From NCBI GenBank assembly GCA_018715805.1, contig DVKX01000019.1, positions 1 to 64,000 on the forward strand: a stretch of DNA of 64,000 nt, given 5' to 3'. The position numbers and the translations under genes are program-made. Each line of letters opens with the position of its first letter. The first letter of the stretch is position 1. The notes below the pieces were generated by a model that made no database searches, was not told the origin of the DNA, and saw nothing but the letters and a program-made list of their open reading frames with translations. The DNA comes from Candidatus Faecousia intestinigallinarum. GTDB lineage: Bacteria; Bacillota; Clostridia; Oscillospirales; Oscillospiraceae. Below are positions 11,250-23,496 of the stretch, piece after piece.

Positions 11250-12329
11250 TTAGACAGGATTGAGGAGGAAACGGATACAGACTGGCGAGGGAAACGCGAC
11301 TTGGTCGCGGAGGAAGAGCTGTCCGTCGCGGCAGATCGCGAAAATAGAGATGGTATCGCTGTCCTGGTTGCCCACAAGCATATATTCGCCCCGGGGATCG
11401 ATGGCGAAATTCCGTGGGGTCTTTCCGCCGCAGGGCGTGCAATGCAGAAACTTCATACATCCATCGGGGGACAGCGAAAAGCAGCAGATGCTGTCGTGTC
11501 CTCGGTTGGAAGCGTACAGATATTTTCCGTTGGGAGTCAGATGCAGATCCGAGCAAATGTTGCCGTCTGCATACTCCGGCGGCAGAGTGGGCAGCGTCTC
11601 CTGCTCCGCCAATACGCTGCCTTGAAGAAAATAATGCGTAACGGAACAGCCTAGTTCGTTGACCAAGTAAAAATGCTGCCCATCGGTGGAAAATTCCCCG
11701 AAGCGTGGGCCGTTCCCAGGGGCGGTTTTGCAGCTGCCCGCCGGATCGGGAGTCACCTGGCCGCTTTGACAGCGGTAGGAAACCAGGGTATCCGTGCCCA
11801 GGTCGGGCACCAGTATCTGCTGACCCCCCGGCAGAAAGAGAACGCTGTGCGCGTGGGGGCAGCTCTGCCGCTGAGGATTCCGGCTCTTTCCGCTGTGCGG
11901 AAAAACCTGGCGCTTTTCCGGAAGAATCCCGCCCTCTGCGTCCAGAGGGAGAATGCTGAGAGAGCCGCCGGCAAAGTTGGCAATACCCAGAAATTCTCCG
12001 TTGGGCGCCATGGCTACATGGCAGGGGTCGGCGCCGCCAATGGCGGCGGTATGCAGAATCTGCATTCTGCCATCCGGCTGATAGGACAGCTCGGTGCAGC
12101 CGCCGCCGGGCTGCCCCAGATAGGTTTTCAGCTCATTGACGGCATAGATTCTGCGCCGGGATTCGTCTGCGCACAGATAGGAGGGATTCCGTGTCTCCAC
12201 GCTGTGGAGGCAGCGGAGCGCTCCTTCCGCAAAAGTACAGAAATAGATACCCTTGCCCTTGCCTGGAAAGACCTCCCCTGTGCCAAACAGGATGGGTTCA
12301 GTATAGGTGCCGATACAGACGTTCCACAT
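11250..12329 (-). CDS. lactonase family protein (6-phosphogluconolactonase-like beta-propeller)
   Basis: A 359-residue protein of the PF10282 lactonase family (YbhE/Pgl type), a predicted seven-bladed beta-propeller. Repeating blade motifs include NPSYLCADESRRRIYAVNE, DPCHVAMAPNGEFLGIANF, CPHAHSVLFLPGGQQILVPD and TPNGKYLYASNRGHDSI. It has no signal peptide, so it is cytoplasmic. It would open a sugar lactone made by one of the dehydrogenases upstream. It is the last gene of the operon, 2 nt after the preceding gene, with GGAG at the junction. The exact lactone is unknown. Confidence 0.85.
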   Translation of the reverse strand: MWNVCIGTYTEPILFGTGEVFPGKGKGIYFCTFAEGALRCLHSVETRNPSYLCADESRRRIYAVNELKTYLGQPGGGCTELSYQPDGRMQILHTAAIGGADPCHVAMAPNGEFLGIANFAGGSLSILPLDAEGGILPEKRQVFPHSGKSRNPQRQSCPHAHSVLFLPGGQQILVPDLGTDTLVSYRCQSGQVTPDPAGSCKTAPGNGPRFGEFSTDGQHFYLVNELGCSVTHYFLQGSVLAEQETLPTLPPEYADGNICSDLHLTPNGKYLYASNRGHDSICCFSLSPDGCMKFLHCTPCGGKTPRNFAIDPRGEYMLVGNQDSDTISIFAICRDGQLFLRDQVAFPSPVCIRFLLNPV

Positions 12330-12331
12330 GG

Positions 12332-13276
12332 TTATTCTCCGTCCAGCTGCGCCTTCAGCTTGACGGCGCCGATGATGAACTGATCCCGCTTGCGCATATC
12401 TTCGTCAATACTCCGGGCGCTCCAATCATAAAAGCCGCTGCCGCTGGAAACGCCCAGTTTGCCGTCTGCCACAAGCTGACGCAGATAGGTTCCAGCCTGT
12501 GCCTCCGCGCAAAGGTTGGGAAGCACACTGTCCTGCACGGACAGTCCCAGCTGCAGGCCGATGGCGTCCAGATGCTTCAGCGGTCCCCACTCCGGGAAGC
12601 GCATGGCCATACCGCAGCTGATAGCGGTATCCACATCCTCGGCAGATGCCAGACCAGAGGCGACAATATCCACCGCTTCCCGGATAATGGCCTGGAAAAT
12701 CCGATTGGCCAGCTGACCTGGCAGATCCCTGCGCACCAGAACCGGAGCCTTTTTCCAGCGTTTCAGTTCTTCTACCATGCGCTGCGCCATGGCCTCGCTG
12801 GTATGCTGCCCCATTACCACCTCTACCAGAGGCACCAAATGGGCGGGCAGCCAGAAATGGGTGGTCATGGTGCGCTCCGGGTGGGTACACAGGGCGCTGA
12901 TCTGTGTGATCTGCAGGCCGCTGGTATTGCTGCAAATGGGAATCTCCGGGGGGAGCAGCCCATCCAGCTGGGCAAATACGTTCTGCTTGGCCTCCAGATT
13001 TTCCACAATGGCTTCCACCACCATGGCGGCCTCCTGGACGGCGCTGGGGAGTTCTGCCGAGACTTCCAGCAAGGCTTCGGCCTGCTGCGCCTCTGCCTGG
13101 GTTGCCAAACCGTTTTCTTCCCGCAGACGAATGCAGTCCATGGCGCGTTCACGCCCCCGGCGGGCGCGGCTTTCCTCGGTATCCACCAGGATAACCCGGC
13201 GTCCGGCCAGGGCGGCCATAGCACCGATACCGCTGCCCATCATGCCGCTGCCTACAATTACCACCGCGTTTCTCAT
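12332..13276 (-). CDS. 3-hydroxyacyl-CoA dehydrogenase-like NAD-dependent oxidoreductase
   Basis: A 314-residue enzyme of the 3HCDH family (the group that also holds L-gulonate 3-dehydrogenase). It has an NAD fold VIVGSGMMGSGIGAMAALAG, an NTSGLQITQIS block, and the catalytic His-Glu dyad in THFWLPAHLVPLVEVV. The C-terminal 3HCDH domain spans about residues 185-300. In classical fatty-acid enzymes the segment reads HFFNP; the HFWLPAH form here, and the sugar-operon context, point to a 3-hydroxy sugar acid or similar polar substrate rather than acyl-CoA. It overlaps the upstream dehydrogenase gene by 4 nt. Confidence 0.8.
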   Translation of the reverse strand: MRNAVVIVGSGMMGSGIGAMAALAGRRVILVDTEESRARRGRERAMDCIRLREENGLATQAEAQQAEALLEVSAELPSAVQEAAMVVEAIVENLEAKQNVFAQLDGLLPPEIPICSNTSGLQITQISALCTHPERTMTTHFWLPAHLVPLVEVVMGQHTSEAMAQRMVEELKRWKKAPVLVRRDLPGQLANRIFQAIIREAVDIVASGLASAEDVDTAISCGMAMRFPEWGPLKHLDAIGLQLGLSVQDSVLPNLCAEAQAGTYLRQLVADGKLGVSSGSGFYDWSARSIDEDMRKRDQFIIGAVKLKAQLDGE

Positions 13277-14367
13277 TTGCAGTTCTCCTCCATTTCGTTG
13301 GGGTGTATCACGACTTTAATGGCGTTATCCCGCCGGTGTACAAAGGTATCCAGCGCTTCCGGAAAGCGCTCCAGGGGGAAGTGATGCGTGATGAAGTCCC
13401 GCACATCCACCTGCCGGGTGGCCATCAGCGCCAAAGCGGCTTTGGAGGCGTTGGGGTTGGCTTTGGAGCCGGTGATCAGGATTTCGTTGTAAGCTATGTA
13501 CTTGAAGGGAACAGACTCCCGTACCTCATCCTTGGCAACGCCGATGAGGCTGACCTTGCCGCCCCGACGCGCCATGTAGATGGCTTGCACCAGGGTGCCG
13601 GGAGCGCCGGAACATTCCAGCACTGTGTCCGCGCCCAACTCCTGGGTGATCCGGCGCACTGCCTGAACCGGATCCTCCTGCTGGATGTCTACCGTGATGT
13701 CCGCGCCAAATTGCGCGGCGGCTTTCAGCCGCGCCCCACGACCCACCACGATGAGTCTGGCCGCACCCTTGGCCTTGGCGATGCGCATGGCGCAAAGACC
13801 GATGGGACCCGGTCCAATAACCACCACAGTGCTGCCCGGCTGGATGCCCACCAGCTCTACCCCGTGGAGAGAGACACCCAGAGTGTCGTTCATAGAGCCT
13901 TCTGAGAAGGTGAGATTTTCCGGCATTTTGGTCACCGCCTGGGGCTTGTATACCTGATATTGGGCGTAAGCGCCCGGGGTGATGAAGCCATAGTGCCGAT
14001 GGCCGCTGGCGGCGTCGCCGTAGTTCAGACAGAGGTTGTAGCTGCCCTTCAGGCAGTTTTCGCAGTGGCCGCAGCCGCAGTGCGCTTCTCCGGCCACCCG
14101 GTCGCCCACCTGAAGGCCGGTAACGCGGCTGCCCACTTTTACCACTTCGCCGGCCCATTCATGCCCGGCAATGAAGGGGTAAGCAGGCGGCCACTGCCCG
14201 GCCAGTTTTCCGCTGAAGATTTCCGGGTCGCTGCCGCAGATGGCCACTGCCTGGATTTTGCAGAGGACTTCGTCCTCCGCAGGTTCCGGAAGGGCTACGG
14301 TCTGTACCGTGAAAGCGCCTGGAGCGGTCATCACGACCGCGCGCATTGTTTCGAGCTTTTCTTCCAT
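13273..14367 (-). CDS. zinc-dependent medium-chain alcohol/polyol dehydrogenase
   Basis: A 364-residue MDR-superfamily dehydrogenase resembling sorbitol, threonine or galactitol-phosphate dehydrogenases. Catalytic-zinc ligands lie in AICGSD and AGHEWAGEV. The structural-zinc cysteines are in CGCGHCENCLKGSYNLC. The NAD-binding fold is VVVIGPGPIGLCAMRIAKA. Expected role: oxidation of a secondary hydroxyl of a sugar or polyol to a ketone with NAD(P)+. It is the first of two zinc dehydrogenases in this operon. The start at 14367 has AAGGAG seven nt upstream. Confidence 0.87.
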   Translation of the reverse strand: MEEKLETMRAVVMTAPGAFTVQTVALPEPAEDEVLCKIQAVAICGSDPEIFSGKLAGQWPPAYPFIAGHEWAGEVVKVGSRVTGLQVGDRVAGEAHCGCGHCENCLKGSYNLCLNYGDAASGHRHYGFITPGAYAQYQVYKPQAVTKMPENLTFSEGSMNDTLGVSLHGVELVGIQPGSTVVVIGPGPIGLCAMRIAKAKGAARLIVVGRGARLKAAAQFGADITVDIQQEDPVQAVRRITQELGADTVLECSGAPGTLVQAIYMARRGGKVSLIGVAKDEVRESVPFKYIAYNEILITGSKANPNASKAALALMATRQVDVRDFITHHFPLERFPEALDTFVHRRDNAIKVVIHPNEMEENCK

Positions 14368-14372
14368 GTTCC

Positions 14373-15413
14373 TTACTCCTTTCCGGAATCCTGCTCCGCA
14401 TTGGGCAGTACCACAGTTCTTCCCAGGGTTTTGCCGGTACGAAGGTCGTCCAGCGCTTCCACGATCTGGGTTAGAGGATAGGTTTTATAGATATAGGGTC
14501 GGATGGCGCCGCTTTCCACCATTTGGATGACCTCCCGCAATTCCTCCCGGGTGGAACCGCGGATGCCGATAATCTCCTTTTCATTAATTACCAAATCCAT
14601 ATAATTGGCTGTCAGCGTGGGTTCGTTGTAGCCCACGACAATGACTTTTCCGCCCCGGCACAGCAGTCCCAGCGCTTGATTCACCGATTCTGCCGAACCA
14701 ATGTTGTCGAATACCACGTCGCACAGCGCTCCGCCGGTGATCCGGGAAATCTCTTCTTGCAGGGAAGCGCAGCGGGTATTCACTGTATAGTCCGCACCGA
14801 AAGAACGCGCCAGAGCCAGCTTTTCCTCCGTCCGGCTGGTGGCGATGACGGTAGCGCCCAGATGCTTTGCGATCTGGATTCCCTGCATACCCAGCCCCCC
14901 GATGCCGGTAATGCAGATGACGGAACCCGCGCCCACCTGCCCCTGGCGCATGGCGTGATACATACACGCCACGGCGTCCGGGACAACGGCGGCCATCTCC
15001 GGGGGTACGCTGGGGGAGATGGGGAACACGCACTCTGCCGGGATGCGGCAATACTGTGCCTGTCCGCCGTCCCGCTCAAAACCCAGCCGAATGCGGTTGA
15101 CGCAGAGATTTCCCCGACCACTGCGGCAGTGGCGGCAGGTGCCGCAGAGAATATCGATTCCCGCCACAAACCGGGTGCCGATGGGAAATTCTGTCACGCC
15201 CTCGCCCAGCGCCACGATCTCACCGCAGATCTCATGTCCGGGTGTGTAGGGGAGATGAACGGTGTCGATCATACCGTCTCCAATGTGCAGATCGGAGGCG
15301 CACAGGCCGCAGGCCAGCACCTTTGCCAGCACCTCCCCAGGCTGAGGCTGAGGAATGGGCACCTCCTCGATGGAAAGGGGTTGATGAAACGCCCGCAAAA
15401 CCGCTGCTTTCAT
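14373..15413 (-). CDS. zinc-dependent medium-chain alcohol dehydrogenase
   Basis: A 346-residue MDR dehydrogenase, distinct from its neighbour. Catalytic zinc ligands are in GLCASDLH and PGHEICGEI; structural-zinc cysteines are in CGTCRHCRSGRGNLC; the NAD fold is ITGIGGLGMQGIQIAKHLG. It resembles AdhP/arabinose- or propanol-preferring dehydrogenases. Two MDR enzymes next to an SDR, a 3HCDH-like enzyme and a lactonase suggest sequential oxidation of several carbons of one substrate. GGAG of its ribosome site overlaps the stop of the upstream cyclase gene. Confidence 0.87.
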   Translation of the reverse strand: MKAAVLRAFHQPLSIEEVPIPQPQPGEVLAKVLACGLCASDLHIGDGMIDTVHLPYTPGHEICGEIVALGEGVTEFPIGTRFVAGIDILCGTCRHCRSGRGNLCVNRIRLGFERDGGQAQYCRIPAECVFPISPSVPPEMAAVVPDAVACMYHAMRQGQVGAGSVICITGIGGLGMQGIQIAKHLGATVIATSRTEEKLALARSFGADYTVNTRCASLQEEISRITGGALCDVVFDNIGSAESVNQALGLLCRGGKVIVVGYNEPTLTANYMDLVINEKEIIGIRGSTREELREVIQMVESGAIRPYIYKTYPLTQIVEALDDLRTGKTLGRTVVLPNAEQDSGKE

Positions 15414-15420
15414 AGCTCGG

Positions 15421-16110
15421 TTACTCCTTCAGCAGCGCCACCACCCGGGTGGGGGAGCCTTCCGCGCCCACCAGGCGCAGGGGCAGGGCGATGATGTCAA
15501 ATTCCTTGCCCAGCACCGCACCCAGATTGGTCAGATGCTCGATGTTCAGGCAGCCGTTGCCTAAGAGAATTTTATGCACCATAAATTCCGCAGGCTTCAC
15601 ATGGTCGCATTTGGCGGCAATTTCCTGGAAGAAATCGTACCCGGCCATTTTTGCCCCGTGATCCACCAGCCACTGAGCGGCGTCTTCGCCCAGATAGGGG
15701 GAGTCGAACCAATATTCCCGGGTGCCGAACATCCGGTCAGACCAGCCGGTGTAAAGAAGAACGATCATGCCTTTTTCCACCTTGTCCGCGTAAGGCTCCA
15801 ACATCTGGGCGGTCACCGGCTCGTTGGGCTTCACGGCGCTGCAGTCGATGCAGATTGCCTTTCCCATAAAGTAGTCCAGCGGCAGATTTTCAATGGTTTC
15901 TCCATCGGGGATTAAATGCCGCGGCGCGTCCAGATGGGTGCCGCTGTGGATGCCCTCCTGGAAGAAACCCACCTGGATGCCGTCTACCTTGGCGTCCTTG
16001 TAGAGCCGGAATTCCACCGGGGGCAACATATTGACATTGGCAGGGGGGATGGACATATGGGAGGTGATGGGCAGGGTCAGATCGACAAGAGAGTGATACG
16101 TAATAGACAT
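15421..16110 (-). CDS. cyclase-family (kynurenine formamidase-like) metal hydrolase
   Basis: A 229-residue PF04199 protein. The metal-binding signature is GIHSGTHLDAPRHL (family HxGTHxDxPxH), with a second block MAGYDFFQEIAAKCDH. Family members hydrolyse amides, lactones or cyclic ketones using Mn or Zn, for example N-formylkynurenine. In this operon it could open a ring of an oxidised sugar or inosose-like intermediate. I chose the start at 16110 (MSITYHS) because AAAGGA is 9 nt upstream; the preceding ATG at 16119 abuts the SD. It lies 16 nt after the permease gene. Confidence 0.85.
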   Translation of the reverse strand: MSITYHSLVDLTLPITSHMSIPPANVNMLPPVEFRLYKDAKVDGIQVGFFQEGIHSGTHLDAPRHLIPDGETIENLPLDYFMGKAICIDCSAVKPNEPVTAQMLEPYADKVEKGMIVLLYTGWSDRMFGTREYWFDSPYLGEDAAQWLVDHGAKMAGYDFFQEIAAKCDHVKPAEFMVHKILLGNGCLNIEHLTNLGAVLGKEFDIIALPLRLVGAEGSPTRVVALLKE

Positions 16111-16126
16111 AACAGACATCCTTTCT

Positions 16127-17155
16127 TTATTTCTTCGCGACATATTTTTGGGTATCAATGGACACGGCCAGCAGAATGATGGCGCCCTTGATGATGTACT
16201 GCAGGTAGGGATTCACGCTCAGGTAAACCAAGCCGTAGCTGATGAGCTGGAAGATGAGCACGCCGATGACTACGCCGCCTACGGTGCCCACGCCGCCGCG
16301 CATGGAGACGCCGCCCGCCACACAGGCGGCAATGGCGTCGCACTCATAGCCGGAGCCTAACGTATTGGCGGCGCTGCCAGTCCGCGCGGCCTCCAAAGAG
16401 CCGCCCAGGCCATAGAGCAGCCCGGCGATCATATAGATCAGCATCATATTCCGGGTGATGTTGATGCCGGAGACGGCGGAGGCCTCAGAGTTGCCGCCGA
16501 TGGCAAACATATTCCGCCCCAGCACCGTTTTGTTCCAGATAAACCAAATCACCGCCACAGCGATCACCGCATAAACGATCAGGTAGGGAAGTTCAAAGCT
16601 CCCGATAATAATGCGCCCCTGCGCCAATTCCTTGTAGGCTTCGGACAGACCGCCGATGGGGGAGGAGTTGTTTACCACATCAAAGTAGATGGACTGTACG
16701 CCGAAGAGCACCAGCTGGAATGCCAGAGAGGCAATGAACGGCGCGACTTTCAGCTTGGATACGAAGAAGCACTGCACCATAGAGAAGACGGCGCACAGGA
16801 TCATGGAAGCCAGGATGGGCAGCCATACGGGAAGCTCCGGCATACTGGTAAAAATCCGACGGGAATAGTCTCCGGCCTGGAGCAGAGAGGCTGCCAAAAT
16901 ACCGGCCATACCCACGGCGCGCCCCAGGGAGAGATCTGTGTTGCCTAGGACGATGATGCCGGCGACGCCCAGGGCGAGAATGATACGGGTGGATGCCTGA
17001 CTGAGAATGAAAGTCAGGTTTTTCATGGTCAAAAGGGAGGGGTCAATGACCACCATGATCACAAAGATACAAACAAGAACGATATAGATCGCATAATCCA
17101 TGGAATACTGGGCGATTTTTCTCCCGGATATTCTTCTGTCAGATAACCGATTCAT
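16127..17155 (-). CDS. sugar ABC transporter permease (RbsC/MglC type)
   Basis: A 342-residue polytopic permease of the BPD_transp_2 family. Typical motifs are ILALGVAGIIVLGNTDLSLG and AIAACVAGGVSMRGGVGTVG, the latter near the ATPase-coupling region. With the ATPase and MglB-like binding protein upstream it forms a CUT2-class monosaccharide importer. The start at 17155 (MNRLSDRR) follows AAGAGG; the earlier in-frame codon at 17185 lies inside the ATPase gene. Confidence 0.9.
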   Translation of the reverse strand: MNRLSDRRISGRKIAQYSMDYAIYIVLVCIFVIMVVIDPSLLTMKNLTFILSQASTRIILALGVAGIIVLGNTDLSLGRAVGMAGILAASLLQAGDYSRRIFTSMPELPVWLPILASMILCAVFSMVQCFFVSKLKVAPFIASLAFQLVLFGVQSIYFDVVNNSSPIGGLSEAYKELAQGRIIIGSFELPYLIVYAVIAVAVIWFIWNKTVLGRNMFAIGGNSEASAVSGINITRNMMLIYMIAGLLYGLGGSLEAARTGSAANTLGSGYECDAIAACVAGGVSMRGGVGTVGGVVIGVLIFQLISYGLVYLSVNPYLQYIIKGAIILLAVSIDTQKYVAKK

Positions 17156-17166
17156 AGTGATACCTC

Positions 17167-18675
17167 TTAAACAAATTTTGCGCACAGCCGCATGATCTCT
17201 TCCTGGCTGGCAGTTTTGGCGTCCACAATTCCGGCCACACGGCCGTTGCTCATGACCAGAATCCGGTCGGATACGCCCAGCAGCTCCGGCATCTCCGAAG
17301 AGATAAAGAGCACGGCATGCCCTTCGCTGGCCAGGGCGTTGATCTTCTGATAGATCTCATATTTGGAACCCACGTCGATGCCCCGGGTGGGCTCGTCCAT
17401 CATCAGAATATCGGGATTTTCCAGAAGCCAGCGGCCGATAATGACCTTTTGCTGGTTGCCGCCCGAAAGGGTACCGATGCGTGTTTTCTGCGACGGGGTT
17501 TTTACATTCATGCTGGCGATTACCTGGTCGGTGGTCTGCTTGATCCGCTTGTTCTGCAGGATGCCCAAGCGGCTGCGGAAAGAGCGGAGAGACACCACGA
17601 CAGTATTGAAAGAAACGGAAAGCCCCGCAAAAATGCCGGTTTTCCGGCGTTCCTCCGTAATCAGTGCAAGTCCGCTTTGAATGGCGCTGTGGGGCGTATG
17701 CTTCAGCAGAGGCTTGCCGTTTTTCAGAATAGTGCCGCTGCCGAAGCGGCGAATGCCGAAGATGGTTTCCACGATCTCCGTCCGGCGGGAACCCACCAGT
17801 CCGGCAATTCCCAGAATCTCGCCGCGGTGCAGATCAAAGGACACATCCTGGCAGGAAGGCTGATAATAGCCGGTAAGATGCTCTACCCGCAGCACCACAT
17901 CCAGCGTGGGGCGGTTTGTTTTGGGAGGGAAGCGGTCTGTCAGTTCCCGGCCCACCATCATGCGGATAATTTCGTCAATAGTCAGCTCTGCGGCAGGCTT
18001 TGTGCCGATGAGGTGACCGTCCCGCATCACGGTAACATAGTCGGAGATTTGCAGAATTTCCTCCATTTTGTGGGAGATGTAGACAATGCCGCAGCCCCTG
18101 GAGGTCAGCTTTCCCAGAATGCGGAACAGATGCGCAACCTCCCGTTCCGTCAGAGACGATGTCGGCTCGTCCAGGACGATGATCCTGGCATTGCAGGAAA
18201 CGGCCTTGGCGATCTCAATCATCTGGCACTCCGAGACGGAAAGCCGTCCGATCCGCTCCCGGGGATCCAGATGAATGTCCAGATCTTCAAACAAAGCCAA
18301 GGTGTCCTTATACATTTTTGCTTTGTCCACCATCAGCTTTGCGGTTCTGGGGAACCGCCCCAGCCATATGTTTTCCATGATGCTCAGACCCTGCACTTGG
18401 TTCAGCTCCTGGTGCACCATAGATACGCCGCCGTCCAGAGCCTGCCGGGGGTTGGCAAAATTAACCGGCTCCCCGTCGATCAGAATCTCTCCGGCGTCTT
18501 TTTTATATATGCCGAACAGGCACTTCATCAAGGTGGATTTTCCAGCGCCGTTTTCGCCCATCAGCGCGTGAATCTTACCCTCTTGCACGGTGAAATCGAT
18601 TTCACTGAGCGCCTGTACGCCGGGAAATGCTTTGCTGATGCCCCGCATCTCCAGTAAAACCTTTTCGCTTGGCAT
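17167..18675 (-). CDS. sugar ABC transporter ATP-binding protein (MglA/RbsA type)
   Basis: A 502-residue protein with two fused ABC domains, as is usual for CUT2 sugar importers. The first domain has Walker [10 protein letters not shown], the degenerate signature [14 protein letters not shown] and Walker [12 protein letters not shown]. The second domain has [16 protein letters not shown] in place of a canonical Walker A, signature [15 protein letters not shown] and Walker [13 protein letters not shown]. It energises the permease encoded immediately downstream. Confidence 0.93.
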
Positions 18676-18748: not shown

Positions 18749-19840
18749 TTAGTTCAGAATGCTGGCGTAAATATCCTCGGCAACCTGGAGGTTGCTGCTG
18801 TCGATGGGAATGTAGGGAACCCGGATATCCCGCATGGTGCCGAATTCACCTTCCACATTGGTGAGCACATCCGCGCCGGTGGCCAGATTGTAGCACATCC
18901 GGAAAATGCAGCGACCCTCCTGGGCGGCATCGGAAAGGATAGAGCCGATGATGTCTCCGCTCTCAATCAGCGGCAGAACTTCGGGCAGGGCGTTGATACC
19001 CACGATGCCGCACTCCATGTTGGCGGCGGAGAGAGCTTCGTAAGCGCCCAGGGTCATGGCGTCGCTATTGGTGAGCACCATTTCCACACCGTCGCCATAC
19101 TTGCCGATCCAAGCGTCCATGACTTCCTTGGCTTCCACCGTCTTAAACTGGCCGGTCTGAATGTCCAGCAGTTCCACGTTGGCTCCCAGGCTGGCAAGGG
19201 TGTCCTGGTTGGCCTGAGTGCGGGCTTCCGCGTCGGGGTGGCCGGGAGTGCCCTTAATGATTACATACTGCATGATGCCGTCGCCGTTCTTGTCCAGGGA
19301 AGGATCATTCTGGAAAGCCTCCCAGGCCATTTGCGCCTGCATCTCGCCGGACTCCTCGGGGGTGGTGCCTACATAGTAGCAATCATCGTAGCTCATCAGA
19401 TCCTCTTCAGAGGGGCAGCGGTTGAAGAACACCACCGGGATGCCCGCGTCCCGCACCTTTTCGATGAGGATGCTGGCGGACTCGGTGGCCACGGCGTTGA
19501 TGGCGATAACGTCAACGCCCTGCTGGATCAGGTTGTCCAACTGCTCCACCTGCTTGGACTGGTCGTTCTGGGCGTCCACCATGAGCAGCTCGGCGCTGTC
19601 GCCGCACTCATTGGTGATGCTGTTGCGGATGTAAGTAACGTAGGCGTTGGTGTAGTCGAAGATCATAACGCCGATCTTCGGCTTTTCCGCAGTGTCTGTA
19701 GCTTCCGGCTCCGTGCTGGCTGCGGGGGTAGCAGGGGGCTCGGTGTTCGGGTTGGTTGCGGCCGGCTCCTTTGTGCTGCATCCTGCAAATACGCAGATGA
19801 CGAGCGCAAAGACCAACAGCATGCTGATCAGCTTTTTCAT
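18749..19840 (-). CDS. MglB-like sugar ABC transporter substrate-binding lipoprotein
   Basis: A 363-residue periplasmic-binding-protein-like lipoprotein (peripla_BP_4). The signal MKKLISMLLVFALVICVFAGC has its lipidated Cys at 21, then a Thr/Pro-rich linker. The mature domain begins KPKIGVMIFDYTNAYVTYIR and contains DKNGDGIMQYVI, matching the calcium loop of galactose-binding protein MglB. The ligand is a monosaccharide or related polyol; galactose itself is not assured. The start at 19840 follows GGAGG. It is the second gene of the operon, after the SDR. Confidence 0.9.
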   Translation of the reverse strand: MKKLISMLLVFALVICVFAGCSTKEPAATNPNTEPPATPAASTEPEATDTAEKPKIGVMIFDYTNAYVTYIRNSITNECGDSAELLMVDAQNDQSKQVEQLDNLIQQGVDVIAINAVATESASILIEKVRDAGIPVVFFNRCPSEEDLMSYDDCYYVGTTPEESGEMQAQMAWEAFQNDPSLDKNGDGIMQYVIIKGTPGHPDAEARTQANQDTLASLGANVELLDIQTGQFKTVEAKEVMDAWIGKYGDGVEMVLTNSDAMTLGAYEALSAANMECGIVGINALPEVLPLIESGDIIGSILSDAAQEGRCIFRMCYNLATGADVLTNVEGEFGTMRDIRVPYIPIDSSNLQVAEDIYASILN

Positions 19841-19897
19841 GCGATGTTCCTCCAATTTTTTGTATTTGAAAATAGGCAAACCCATTTTCTTACGGTT

Positions 19898-20653
19898 TTA
19901 TACAGTCATGCCGCCGTCCACCACAATATTGGCGCCGGTCATGAAGCCCACTTCCGCGCCGGCGGCGAATACAATGGCCTTTGCCACCTCCTGAGCGGTG
20001 CCCAGCCGCCCCATGGGCTGCCGTGCGATAAACTGCCGCATAGCCAGCTCTGGGTCGGGGGAAGCGTCTACTCTGCGCTGGAAGGAGGGGGAATAGACGG
20101 TGCCGGGGCTGACGCAGTTGACGCGGATGCCTTCGGAAACGTACTCTGCGGCCATGGAGCGGCTGAGAGAGAGCACGGCGCCTTTGGTGGCGCTGTAAAT
20201 AGCGCGGTTGGCCACGCCCTTGATGGCTACGGTGGAGGCGATGTTCACGATAGAACCCTTAGTCTGCCGGAGATGCGGCATTGCCAGACGGCACATCAGG
20301 AATACGCCTTTTACATTGGTATCCATGGCGGCGTCCCAGTCCTCCAAAGAAGCGGTTTCCACGCTCCCGCCGGGAACCACCCCCGCCGCATTCACCAGGA
20401 TGTCGATTTGGCCGAAAGTCTCCACCGCCGCTTGTATGATTCGCTGGCAATCGGCTTCCCTGCCTACGTCGCCCTGCACAAAGATCGCGCTGCCGCCGGA
20501 GCGCCGGATCTCCTGGCAGGTTTTTTGCGCGGAGGCGGAAAGAGAATTGACGACTACGTTGGCGCCCTCCGAGGCGAAGAGAAAAGCGGCCTCCTGCCCC
20601 ATCCCAGCGCCGGCGCCGGTGAGAATGACTGTCTTATTTTGACACGGTTTCGT
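19898..20653 (-). CDS. SDR-family oxidoreductase, probably starting at ACG
   Basis: A ~251-residue classical short-chain dehydrogenase. It has a TGAGAGMGQEAA cofactor motif, NAAG, the catalytic Ser in NIASTVAI, the YSATK Tyr-Lys pair (Y and K catalytic) and SPGTVYSP. It is the first gene of the nine-gene operon and probably oxidises a sugar or polyol hydroxyl. Start choice is unusual. GTG at 20689 lies upstream of the likely transcription start, and GTG at 20662 overlaps the SD sequence AAGGGGG. ACG at 20653 sits exactly 8 nt after that SD and gives the family-like N terminus (M)KPCQNKTVILTGAG. Confidence 0.85.
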   Translation of the reverse strand, partial: TKPCQNKTVILTGAGAGMGQEAAFLFASEGANVVVNSLSASAQKTCQEIRRSGGSAIFVQGDVGREADCQRIIQAAVETFGQIDILVNAAGVVPGGSVETASLEDWDAAMDTNVKGVFLMCRLAMPHLRQTKGSIVNIASTVAIKGVANRAIYSATKGAVLSLSRSMAAEYVSEGIRVNCVSPGTVYSPSFQRRVDASPDPELAMRQFIARQPMGRLGTAQEVAKAIVFAAGAEVGFMTGANIVVDGGMTV

Positions 20654-20679
20654 GGGAAACACCCCCTTGTGTTTTCTAT

Positions 20680-20708
20680 AGGATACCACGTTCTAACCAA
20701 ATTTGCAA
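20680..20708 (-). promoter_or_regulatory. sigma-A promoter of the nine-gene sugar-oxidation operon
   Basis: On the minus strand TTGCAA (20703-20708), 17-nt spacer, TATCCT (20680-20685). Transcription should start near 20673, just upstream of the SD at 20662-20668. Confidence 0.65.
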
Positions 20709-20714
20709 CTGTCT

Positions 20715-20733
20715 TGCGAGATTTTTTGTCGCA
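20715..20733. promoter_or_regulatory. inverted repeat TGCGA-N9-TCGCA, candidate operator
   Basis: TGCGA (20715-20719) and TCGCA (20729-20733) form a 5+5 inverted repeat with a 9-nt centre. It lies directly upstream of the operon promoter and about 140 nt before the divergent PrpR-like regulator gene. The position suits a binding site for that regulator. Confidence 0.45.
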
Positions 20734-20868
20734 TTTTGAAACACTATTCGAAAAATGCCGTTTTTTGAGAAAAGTGGTGGATTTTTCTGTGCTGCTATAC
20801 TATAATTATTTATTGAAAATGAGCACAGAAATTCAATATAAAAATTCAGGGATGGAGGGCGACAAGGA

Positions 20869-22662
20869 ATGAAAATGAACGTGCTGGCGTTTGCGCCCTA
20901 TGAGGCCATGCGCACAACGATCCGCGAAGCACAGAAAAACTACCCGGAGTTGTCGGTGGATATTGTAGTGGGCACATATGACGACTATTTGGAAAAAAGC
21001 GACAGCATCGACCTGTCTCAATATGACTGCGTGTTTGCACGGGGCTATACGGCGCAGATGCTGAAAAAGACGTCGGTGGTTCCGGTGTCGGAAATCAAGG
21101 TTTCACTGTATGATATGCTCCGGGTGATCACCACCGCGCGGCTCCGCAGCGTTCCGTTTGCCATTCTGGCATCCGCCAATATATTAGAGACGGCGCATCA
21201 AATAGTGGATATTCTGCAATACCAGGACATCTTCACCTATGCCATTGAAAGTGAAGAAGAGGCTGCGTCCCATTTGGCAGAGCTGACCCAAATGGGCGTC
21301 CAGCTGATTATTGGAGATGTTTATGCCGTCAACGCTGCGCAGCGATCCAATATCCCCACCATATTGATTACATCCAGCCGGATGAGTATTGAGGACACCA
21401 TCCAGGATGCCATTAACAACCGGCAGCAGCACCTGCTGGTTTACGAGAAGCTGAGCCTTGCCTCCGAGGTGATTCGCAATGCGGCTGACTCCGTAGTGGT
21501 TTATGACCAAAATGAGAAGATCGTGCTTTCCAACCTGACTGGACTGCAAATTACCTATCGGCAGCTGGAGAAACAGCTGCGAAAGATGCTGGAAAAGCTG
21601 ATGGATACCCGAGAGGATTCTTATTGCGTCAGCCGAATCAGCGGCAGTGTCCTGCGAATCCACGGCCGTGTGCTCAATCTCTCCGCGCCGTATTATGCTT
21701 TCTATATCCAGACCGCCCTCACCCCCGCCCCGGCAGTGAATCAGGGAATCCAGATCACCTATCCCTCGGAGGAAACGCTCCAGAGCATTACCGACCGGGT
21801 TTATGAACTGCCCCAGAAGCTTCTGAATCCCCAGGCGGCTACCCTGTCCGCCAAATTCCCCACGGTAATCATCGGCGGTATCGGCTCGGGCAAAGAGCTG
21901 CTGGCCAAGTACCTCTGGTGCACCAGCGCTTATCAGAATGTACCCTTGATTACGATTGACTGTACTACGCTGAGCCAGAAGGCGCTGGAAGCCTGTATCG
22001 CCAACCCGGATTCTCCCCTGTACGACGAGCAGGTGGTGCTGCTGGTAAAAAATCTGCACCTGCTGAACATGGAATGCCAGCAGATTCTGTGCCAGTTTCT
22101 GGAGGACTCCTCTTTCTCCTCCCGCTATCCCCTGATGGTCACCATGGCAGAGAATCCCCATGCCCTGCTCTCTCAGCACAAGCTGCTGTTCCGGCTGTGC
22201 GATTATTTGGTGGGCAGCTATCTGTACATCGAAGATCTGAACCACCGGCCGGAGGATGTGGCCTCCGCTGTGGGCACGCTGGTCAATAAGTACAATATGG
22301 AATTCGGGAAAGAAGTCATCGGACTGCTGCCCGACGCGCTGAAAGCGCTGCAAAACTTTCACTGGAACTCCAACATGAATCAGCTGAAATCGGTGATCCG
22401 GCAGCTGGTGACTACCGCTACCCAGCACTATATCACCTTGGAGCAGGTCAGCGCTGTGCTGGATACGTTTCAGTCCCCTTATGCGTCTTCTTCGGGACTG
22501 GATACCAACGGCACCATAGAGGAGATCGAACAGCGGATTCTTTTTGCGGTACTGCAGGAGGAGGATATGAACTATTCTGCTGCCGCCAAACGTCTGGGAA
22601 TTTCCCGCTCCACCATCTACCGGAGGATGAGGGAGGCGAAGCTGCCCTGCAGCCCGGGATAG
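20869..22662 (+). CDS. PrpR-N-domain regulator with degenerate AAA+ domain and Fis-type HTH
   Basis: A 597-residue regulator. Residues ~1-185 match the PrpR N-terminal sensor domain. Residues ~195-320 are a PAS-like region, residues ~325-535 an AAA+ domain of sigma-54-activator ancestry, and ~560-595 a Fis-type helix-turn-helix (YSAAAKRLGISRSTIYRRM). Walker A survives as GGIGSGKELLAKYL (336-349). The GAFTGA loop is absent, and the Walker B acidic pair is replaced (VVLLVKNLHLL where LFLDEI is expected). It is therefore unlikely to remodel sigma-54 polymerase. It probably acts as a ligand-sensing activator or repressor of the divergent operon. Confidence 0.85.
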   Translation: MKMNVLAFAPYEAMRTTIREAQKNYPELSVDIVVGTYDDYLEKSDSIDLSQYDCVFARGYTAQMLKKTSVVPVSEIKVSLYDMLRVITTARLRSVPFAILASANILETAHQIVDILQYQDIFTYAIESEEEAASHLAELTQMGVQLIIGDVYAVNAAQRSNIPTILITSSRMSIEDTIQDAINNRQQHLLVYEKLSLASEVIRNAADSVVVYDQNEKIVLSNLTGLQITYRQLEKQLRKMLEKLMDTREDSYCVSRISGSVLRIHGRVLNLSAPYYAFYIQTALTPAPAVNQGIQITYPSEETLQSITDRVYELPQKLLNPQAATLSAKFPTVIIGGIGSGKELLAKYLWCTSAYQNVPLITIDCTTLSQKALEACIANPDSPLYDEQVVLLVKNLHLLNMECQQILCQFLEDSSFSSRYPLMVTMAENPHALLSQHKLLFRLCDYLVGSYLYIEDLNHRPEDVASAVGTLVNKYNMEFGKEVIGLLPDALKALQNFHWNSNMNQLKSVIRQLVTTATQHYITLEQVSAVLDTFQSPYASSSGLDTNGTIEEIEQRILFAVLQEEDMNYSAAAKRLGISRSTIYRRMREAKLPCSPG

Positions 22663-22786: not shown

Positions 22787-23101
22787 TTAATCTGCGTCGT
22801 CCTTCAGCGCTTCTATGTAAAAGCTCACTGGGCGGAAGCCATCGTTGCAGCTGATCATGGCGGAGCGCTGGTTTTTCATCCAGCCGTCATAAAAGTTGCT
22901 TCCGCCGCAGGACAGCGCCAGCACAAAGGGGGACATACTCTCCCACGCGCTTTGGCACAGTCCCTCCGGTTTTTGCCAGCCCTCGGCCACCCAGCTCTGC
23001 CCTTCCTGAATGTGGCAGGCGTGCGCGATAGGATTTTCATATTGCGCCATCAGATCGGGATAGCAGGCTTTCCGCATGGCGGTGATTCTGACTTTTTTCA
23101 T
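22787..23101 (-). CDS. TIGR04076 family protein
   Basis: A 104-residue cytoplasmic protein of unknown function matching the TIGR04076 pattern: an N-terminal KKVRITAMRKACYPDL, a central EGQSWVAEGWQKPEGLCQSAW, and a C-terminal block AMISCNDGFRPVSFYIEAL. The conserved cysteines (residues 13, 29, 49, 65 and 85) suggest metal or redox chemistry. The start at 23101 is chosen because only this C-terminal part of the longer open frame is protein-like. It lies 17 nt downstream of a Cys-rich gene and is probably co-transcribed with it. Confidence 0.75.
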   Translation of the reverse strand: MKKVRITAMRKACYPDLMAQYENPIAHACHIQEGQSWVAEGWQKPEGLCQSAWESMSPFVLALSCGGSNFYDGWMKNQRSAMISCNDGFRPVSFYIEALKDDAD

Positions 23102-23118
23102 GGCGAAACCTCCGGTTG

Positions 23119-23496
23119 TTATGAGGTGAACCCCTGGATTTGCAGCAGTTCGATTACTGTTTGCCCCCGCTGGGTAAGGGCGATGCTGCCATGAATGGGA
23201 AAGCCCTGGTAAGCCTGATAGGAGCATCCCTTCAGGGGGGCGGTATAGTCGATGGAGATCAGATTTTTCTTTTCCAGGCACTGTAAAATGCGGCTGTATT
23301 CCTCTGGGGAATGATCCTGGCTCTCCAGAAAAACCGGCTGCTCTGCGTCCGCTTTCCGGGCGACAGGCAGAAAGGGAAACTGCCCTAAAAGCTCCAGAAT
23401 GTCTATCTCTCCTTGGGTCAACTCCAGCACAGCGGCACAGCCGCTGCAGCCGCCGCAGCGTCCGGCGCAGCTTTTGCCGCAATCGTCAGGACACAT
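23119..23496 (-). CDS. Cys-rich N-terminal hypothetical protein
   Basis: A 125-residue protein of unknown function. The first 20 residues hold six Cys (CPDDCGKSCAGRCGGCSGC), which could bind a metal or an Fe-S cluster. The remainder (residues 25-125) looks like a winged-helix fold, with LTQGEIDILELLGQ and a final IALTQRGQTVIELLQ. A sensor or small DNA-binding protein is possible, unproven. GGAAGGAG precedes the start. It is the first gene of a two-gene unit with the TIGR04076 protein. Confidence 0.65.
   Translation of the reverse strand: MCPDDCGKSCAGRCGGCSGCAAVLELTQGEIDILELLGQFPFLPVARKADAEQPVFLESQDHSPEEYSRILQCLEKKNLISIDYTAPLKGCSYQAYQGFPIHGSIALTQRGQTVIELLQIQGFTS

Follow-up and report, generated by a model that had tools for sequence, protein, structure and literature searches.

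The window, as we call the whole 64-kb stretch of DNA analysed here, encodes a 597-aa protein with a PrpR_N sensor domain, a remnant AAA+ core and a Fis-type helix-turn-helix (HTH) domain. Its open reading frame has exactly the coordinates given in an earlier note on this DNA. It faces a minus-strand operon that begins with an SDR oxidoreductase gene. The genes and protein features, in order of position, are:

11250–12329, minus strand: seven-bladed lactonase (6-phosphogluconolactonase-like)
12332–13276, minus strand: 3-hydroxyacyl-CoA-dehydrogenase-like protein
13273–14367, minus strand: zinc-dependent dehydrogenase (Tdh / inosose-dehydrogenase-like)
14373–15413, minus strand: zinc-dependent dehydrogenase
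15421–16158, minus strand: cyclase / arylformamidase-like protein
16127–17185, minus strand: ABC permease BPD_transp_2
17167–18675, minus strand: sugar ABC transporter ATPase
18749–19885, minus strand: sugar-binding protein (Peripla_BP_4, MglB-like)
19898–20689, minus strand: SDR oxidoreductase, first gene of the facing operon (ORF list, profiles)
20869–22662, plus strand: S-group regulator (group defined below), PrpR_N / AAA+ remnant / Fis-type HTH, 597 aa (ORF list, Pfam)
20947–21417, plus strand: PrpR_N sensor domain, residues 27–183 (PF06506, E 1.2e-33 to 1.1e-32)
21832–22233, plus strand: AAA+ core remnant, about residues 322–455 (partial PF00158/PF14532 matches)
21874–21894, plus strand: retained P-loop GGIGSGK, residues 336–342 (alignment, column conservation)
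22006–22011, plus strand: place of the missing GAFTGA loop-1 stretch, between residues 380 and 381 (alignments)
22048–22053, plus strand: Walker B acidic pair replaced by K394-N395 (alignment)
22120–22125, plus strand: place of the missing loop-2 / pre-sensor-I stretch of about 9 aa, between residues 418 and 419 (alignments)
22243–22467, plus strand: AAA_lid_14, residues 459–533 (Pfam)
22513–22635, plus strand: HTH_8 Fis-type DNA-binding domain, residues 549–589 (Pfam)

No prp (methylcitrate) gene was found among the nine facing genes scanned. Downstream of the regulator lie two overlapping minus-strand ORFs (22787–23496); 22787–23482 was scanned and matched no Pfam family.

The earlier note had described a PrpR-like activator in which the sensor, the HTH and Walker A remain while the GAFTGA loop is missing and Walker B is replaced. 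This description was borne out. The P-loop is present as GGIGSGK, the GAFTGA loop is absent, VVLLVKNLH occupies the Walker B strand with K-N where D-E is needed, and Pfam matched both PrpR_N and HTH_8. Losses in the window protein extend beyond that list to loop 2, sensor I, both arginine fingers and the sensor II arginine; the sensor I, finger and sensor II columns hold A, L and Y, and N, respectively. The sigma-54 interaction domain PF00158 gave only a weak, partial match around the P-loop (residues 322–375). The protein reached the NCBIfam cut-off of no named activator, PrpR included; its best score was 87.9 bits, to the PrpR model, against a cut-off of 499.2. Single-sequence structure prediction of residues 301–596 returned a mean pLDDT of 46, too low to be of use.

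The window protein falls into a group of 37 full-length proteins, here termed S, from the window's own family and six other families of Clostridia. Members were collected from 200 and 400 family genomes, 61 genus genomes and 391 class genomes. By definition an S protein branches with the group in the tree, has lost loop 1, loop 2 and Walker B, and keeps the P-loop; the window protein shows all of these. Quick trees, with support by SH-aLRT only, placed S on one side of a branch for the whole protein (support 100; 30 S rows and 23 other PrpR_N proteins), for PrpR_N only (97; 37 S rows) and for the lid and HTH only (100). Since the grouping appears on PrpR_N alone and on lid plus HTH alone, the damaged AAA+ domain is not its source. 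The window protein is a long branch, with at most 32% whole-protein identity to any other row and 34% over PrpR_N. Rows left out were fragments (L088, L089 and L090, from genomes G218 and G229), truncated proteins (L016, L023, L035), a 179-aa protein with a weak match (L030) and duplicates (L015, L020, L027); L146 comes from a stretch with one in-frame TAG, and L106 and L086 have over-long starts. The search for related loci also returned a single distant Mariprofundaceae locus. Compared with solved structures, the S profile aligned to the AAA+ domains of ZraR and NtrC1, and VpsR was among the structures recovered.

By alignment, 37/37 S proteins, the window protein included, have lost the loop-1 stretch with GAFTGA, about nine loop-2 residues and the Walker B D-E pair, which is more than chance. 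A recent loss in the window genome was rejected because the same losses occur in all 37 proteins and seven families; as judged from this distribution, the departure from sigma-54 is old and common to the whole group. The sensor I asparagine and arginine finger 1 are kept in none of the 37 proteins, finger 2 in five and the sensor II arginine in one. At the P-loop, the lysine position is K in 33/37 and R in 3/37, the first glycine is G in 36/37 (with one X) and the second in 35/37. These glycines are among the most conserved AAA+ columns of the S alignment, the P-loop is maintained among members less than 60% identical, and full length is maintained across the class. Its retention is not automatic, since three degenerate non-S proteins (L028, L029, L033) have lost the P-loop lysine instead. 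In nine S pairs, which exclude the window protein as it has no near relative, dN/dS over the AAA core was 0.09–0.27, near the values of the other domains, and by this measure the AAA+ domain of the group is under purifying selection. Mean identity between members was 25% for the AAA core, 37% for PrpR_N and 51% for the HTH. The earlier description of a dead engine is too simple for a domain whose P-loop is kept under selection although its other catalytic residues have been lost. We infer that the S domain binds nucleotide without hydrolysing it, in which case natural selection would have parted ATP binding from hydrolysis in this group. Some S members have, by eye, a D or E two residues past the Walker B place, where the window protein has H; this residue could replace the acidic pair in those members. 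Outside S, GAFTGA or the Walker B pair is missing from nine more PrpR_N proteins (L017, L018, L022, L024, L028, L029, L033, L077, L078). Their damage is of a different kind, and sigma-54 independence may have evolved several times among PrpR_N proteins.

The earlier note had also raised the question of a genome-encoded RpoN. Neither its DNA-binding domain (PF04552) nor its core-binding domain (PF04963) was matched in the window genome (2.09 Mb, 98.8% complete, 99 contigs). PF00158 gave five matches there: the window protein, L005, and three in open frames of 795–895 aa; PrpR_N was absent from the other four proteins. We take L005 to be a Mg-chelatase/ComM-like protein. A strong RpoN match was lacking in 59 of the 61 genus genomes, G203 being counted as negative on one weak PF04552 match (1.3e-4), and was present in two. 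In these two, RpoN lies within ~1.3 kb of an ordinary activator-like match (G254:C5:7494-9724 and G218:C32:2029-4253), as if sigma-54 and one activator had been gained together.

Across the S group, RpoN is present in the genomes of 18/37 proteins, and its state changes at least 14 times within the S tree. A coupling of the S change to RpoN loss was rejected on these two counts; with 18 members in RpoN genomes, the conversion was not driven by that loss. Some RpoN-negative genomes are 78–87% complete, and the conclusion is independent of incomplete genomes because the S-bearing genomes at least 90% complete divide into 9 without and 16 with RpoN (hand count). Among non-S Clostridiales PrpR_N proteins, 14 of the 23 examined keep a GAFTGA-type loop (hand count). 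PrpR_N proteins with such a loop occurred in an RpoN genome in 12/13 cases (also a hand count), the exception (G019) being 80% complete. Strict -24/-12 sites were found in 0/36 S upstream regions (0.33 expected) and in 4/20 control regions (0.43 expected). Such a promoter on the facing operon, which the earlier note had named as evidence against its reading, was not found in the window intergenic region, where the best candidate scored 8/10 and lacked the GG. With no GAFTGA, no hydrolysis residues, no RpoN domain and no -24/-12 site, it is most unlikely that the window protein works as a sigma-54 activator. Proteins with PrpR_N, AAA+ and Fis-type HTH domains in gut genomes readily receive the labels "sigma-54-dependent" or "PrpR", and the S group illustrates how these can mislabel a whole group, even where RpoN exists.

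S loci share a 17-bp palindrome, TGTTT(N7)AAACA, which frequently comes right behind a sigma-A -10 box. At ≥9/10 positions, the 36 S upstream regions contain 21 copies where 1.1 would be expected (L080 had too little upstream sequence), and the 20 controls contain one where 0.5 would be expected. A motif matrix found 40 sites at ≥12 bits versus 0.4 expected, having been trained on sites from the same regions it scored. The held-out scan differed in this respect. Its matrix comprised 14 S sites of the window's family with the window left out, and was applied to seven other-family loci and the window. At 12 bits it gave 4.17 sites/kb in 300-bp junctions and 0.103/kb elsewhere, an enrichment of about 40-fold. 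No site at ≥8/10 was seen in S members L095, L099, L106, L108, L109, L086 and L111. The following features were noted around the window's divergent junction:

20630–20646, no strand assigned: second, weaker putative S-type operator TGTCTTATTTTGACACG, inside the 5' end of the SDR gene (10.4 bits)
20727–20743, no strand assigned: putative S-type operator TGTCGCATTTTGAAACA (16.2 bits, held-out 16.6 bits, 8/10 positions)
20784–20831, no strand assigned: inverted repeat TTTCTGTGCT / AGCACAGAAA, 28 bp apart, bracketing the candidate -10 (arms search)
20793–20801, plus strand: candidate extended -10 TGCTATACT for the regulator (read by eye; missed by the consensus scan)

The site at 20727–20743, 38 bp upstream of the SDR start, is the top matrix site in the 64 kb, within which only three sites reach 9 bits. 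It lies at the edge of the 20700–20740 region singled out by the earlier note for footprinting. Arms of ≥10 bp, as in the inverted repeat at 20784–20831, arose in 6/1000 Markov shuffles; as an operator this repeat was set aside, no such repeat being seen in relatives.

Evidence for sigma-A/70 promoters comes from relatives: of 12 with a proximal operator, 7 have a -10 at it. The window's own promoters are weak by consensus or unclear. In those seven relatives, a TAnnnT box ends 0–2 bp before the proximal operator (background 10.5%, p 7e-5), and the strongest also show a -35 at a 17-bp spacing (e.g. TTGACA-17-TATGCT). The sigma-A promoter that the earlier note assigned to the facing operon was not recovered. 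Neither strand of 20640–20900 gave a hit in a scan at ≥9/12, and next to the window operator the best candidate on the minus strand was poor. These motif and promoter data derive mostly from relatives ~23–32% identical to the window protein. In nine loci the proximal and distal operators are 60–62, 70–71 or 93 bp apart. This spacing is phased to one helix face (p 0.002 over six lineages, a small and chosen sample). A site lies 67–104 bp upstream of the divergent gene start in at least 9 of 23 loci (L091, L092, L096, L098, L104, L144, L146, L083, L084). Extra S-type operator pairs were seen away from the regulator start at L143 (-4418 and -4358, 60 bp apart), L148 (+1785 and +1839) and L149 (-2375/-2292 and +1778/+1881), and may mark further target operons.

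An acid-sugar kinase was found in 30/37 S loci versus 0/20 loci of non-S PrpR_N proteins, and PdxA in 24/37 versus 1/20, using models built from S neighbours and loci of 9.6–26 kb (S) and 10.9–18.5 kb (controls). Both are usually divergent from the S regulator. The kinase has SBD_N/NBD_C domains, and its nearest NCBIfam model is D-threonate kinase, below the cut-off of that model. DUF1537 kinases were reportedly defined by earlier work. Kinase and PdxA are frequent, not defining, traits of S, and both are absent from the window operon, one of seven S loci without the kinase. GntP, TRAP or TctC-type transport genes or a transketolase-like protein lie near four of the seven (L093, L143, L111, and L102, which shares gene clusters c33/c34 with L093). 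L110 has AsnA and a tRNA synthetase nearby, and L095 has no recognised neighbours. Because the window operon is without the kinase and PdxA common at S loci, the ligand of its regulator may differ from that of other members. The S group is a candidate regulator for the use of four-carbon acid sugars in Clostridia, for which it supplies a predicted operator and regulon.

With a probability of roughly 0.8, we consider that the window protein controls a sugar or sugar-acid operon as a one-component regulator, and that its old group descends from sigma-54 activators and has given up sigma-54. The best reading from sequence is an ATP-binding, non-hydrolysing, sigma-A-type regulator. The conversion to a sigma-A-type regulator proposed in the earlier note is partly supported, relatives showing sigma-A promoters, and is amended in being group-wide and untied to RpoN loss. 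In the proposed mechanism PrpR_N would sense a metabolite, as its family and the neighbouring genes suggest. The AAA+ domain, judging by its missing residues, would neither hydrolyse ATP nor contact sigma-54, and its P-loop probably binds nucleotide, holding or switching an oligomer. The Fis-type HTH would bind the TGTTT-N7-AAACA palindromes identified by comparison. In relatives, one operator immediately follows the -10 box of the sigma-A promoter that serves the regulator itself, and would give autorepression; a second operator, 60–62 or 70–71 bp off on the same helix face, lies closer to the divergent operon. The best window operator would fit control of the facing operon. Its place 38 bp before the SDR start makes repression, released by the metabolite, the simplest reading there. 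The word "activator" in the earlier note needs qualification: the operators that immediately follow -10 boxes in relatives point to a repressing role, at the very least at the promoter of the regulator itself. At a distal operator near the divergent gene, activation could occur as well as repression.

How far the P-loop shapes this regulation is a more tentative matter. It may alone have been kept as a sensor of ATP, or of a phosphorylated metabolite, controlling an oligomer that bridges two operators on one DNA face, in a class-wide pseudo-AAA+ group; we place this somewhat short of even odds. If true, PrpR_N would tie acid-sugar genes to their substrate, and a silent ATPase would tie them to the energy or phosphate state. 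A comparable standing, plausible yet not favoured, is given to a sigma-A activator that binds upstream and recruits ordinary RNA polymerase with ligand and ATP, like R. capsulatus NtrC or VpsR. The sites 67–104 bp upstream of divergent genes are suited to activation, VpsR is among the structures found by the S profile, and R. capsulatus NtrC is reported to need ATP binding and not hydrolysis (available sections of PMC10274813). Against this reading, the proximal operators overlap the region where transcription from the regulator's promoter would begin, and no more than 38 bp separate the best window site from the SDR start.

Two further explanations are less likely. A decaying activator, with the AAA+ domain a passive leftover of no role, would account for the loss of every catalytic residue outside the P-loop and for a core more variable than PrpR_N or the HTH. 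It appears improbable given a core dN/dS like that of other domains, a P-loop kept between divergent members and full length kept across the class. Far less credible still is a real sigma-54 activator whose RpoN was missed in a 99-contig assembly of 98.8% completeness. That 18/37 S proteins do have RpoN in their genomes speaks for it, but both RpoN domains are absent here, 59/61 genus genomes lack a strong match, and GAFTGA, Walker B and -24/-12 sites are all missing; this explanation is near refuted. The preferred reading remains the non-hydrolysing sigma-A-type regulator.

Among known systems, E. coli PrpR (propionate, sigma-54) has the same PrpR_N, AAA+ and Fis-type HTH order as the window protein. 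In the alignment with PrpR and sigma-54 activators that the earlier note had suggested, the GAFTG loop, Walker B D-E and both arginine fingers were present in PrpR and not in the window protein. The PrpR_N-type sigma-54 activators of Clostridiales share the sensor domain with S and differ in the GAFTGA-type loop kept by 14/23. E. coli TyrR, a sigma-70 regulator related to sigma-54 activators, is like S in its deleted GAFTGA loop and retained Fis-type HTH, and the window protein shares this loss of GAFTGA with the HTH kept. TyrR acts at ordinary promoters, as S proteins probably do. In the same alignment, TyrR differs in keeping Walker B D-E, both arginine fingers, the sensor II arginine and loop 2. 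Its operator has TGT...ACA arms, as in the S motif, and its sensor is ACT/PAS, not PrpR_N. VpsR, DhaR, HupR, YplP and the NtrC proteins of R. capsulatus and Caulobacter likewise have sensors other than PrpR_N.

PrpR_N is listed among the sensor domains of activators (PMC6615313, in the part available). As far as the accessible text of the two papers goes, TyrR, DhaR and HupR are known to have lost GAFTGA and moved to sigma-70, the same was proposed for VpsR and YplP (PMC3162934), and the NtrC proteins of R. capsulatus and Caulobacter are reported as further cases (PMC10274813). VpsR, DhaR, HupR, YplP and these NtrC proteins resemble S as relatives of sigma-54 activators with GAFTGA defective or deleted (same portions of PMC3162934 and PMC10274813). 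Caulobacter NtrC, unlike S, needs a Walker B residue in vivo (PMC10274813, same portion). Those portions of PMC3162934 and PMC10274813 describe no protein in which loop 1, loop 2, Walker B, sensor I and fingers are lost together, and no description of the S group itself was found in the literature searched, mostly abstracts. Set beside these systems, S adds a more extreme, class-wide case of GAFTGA loss, with its own sensor, predicted operator and predicted regulon.
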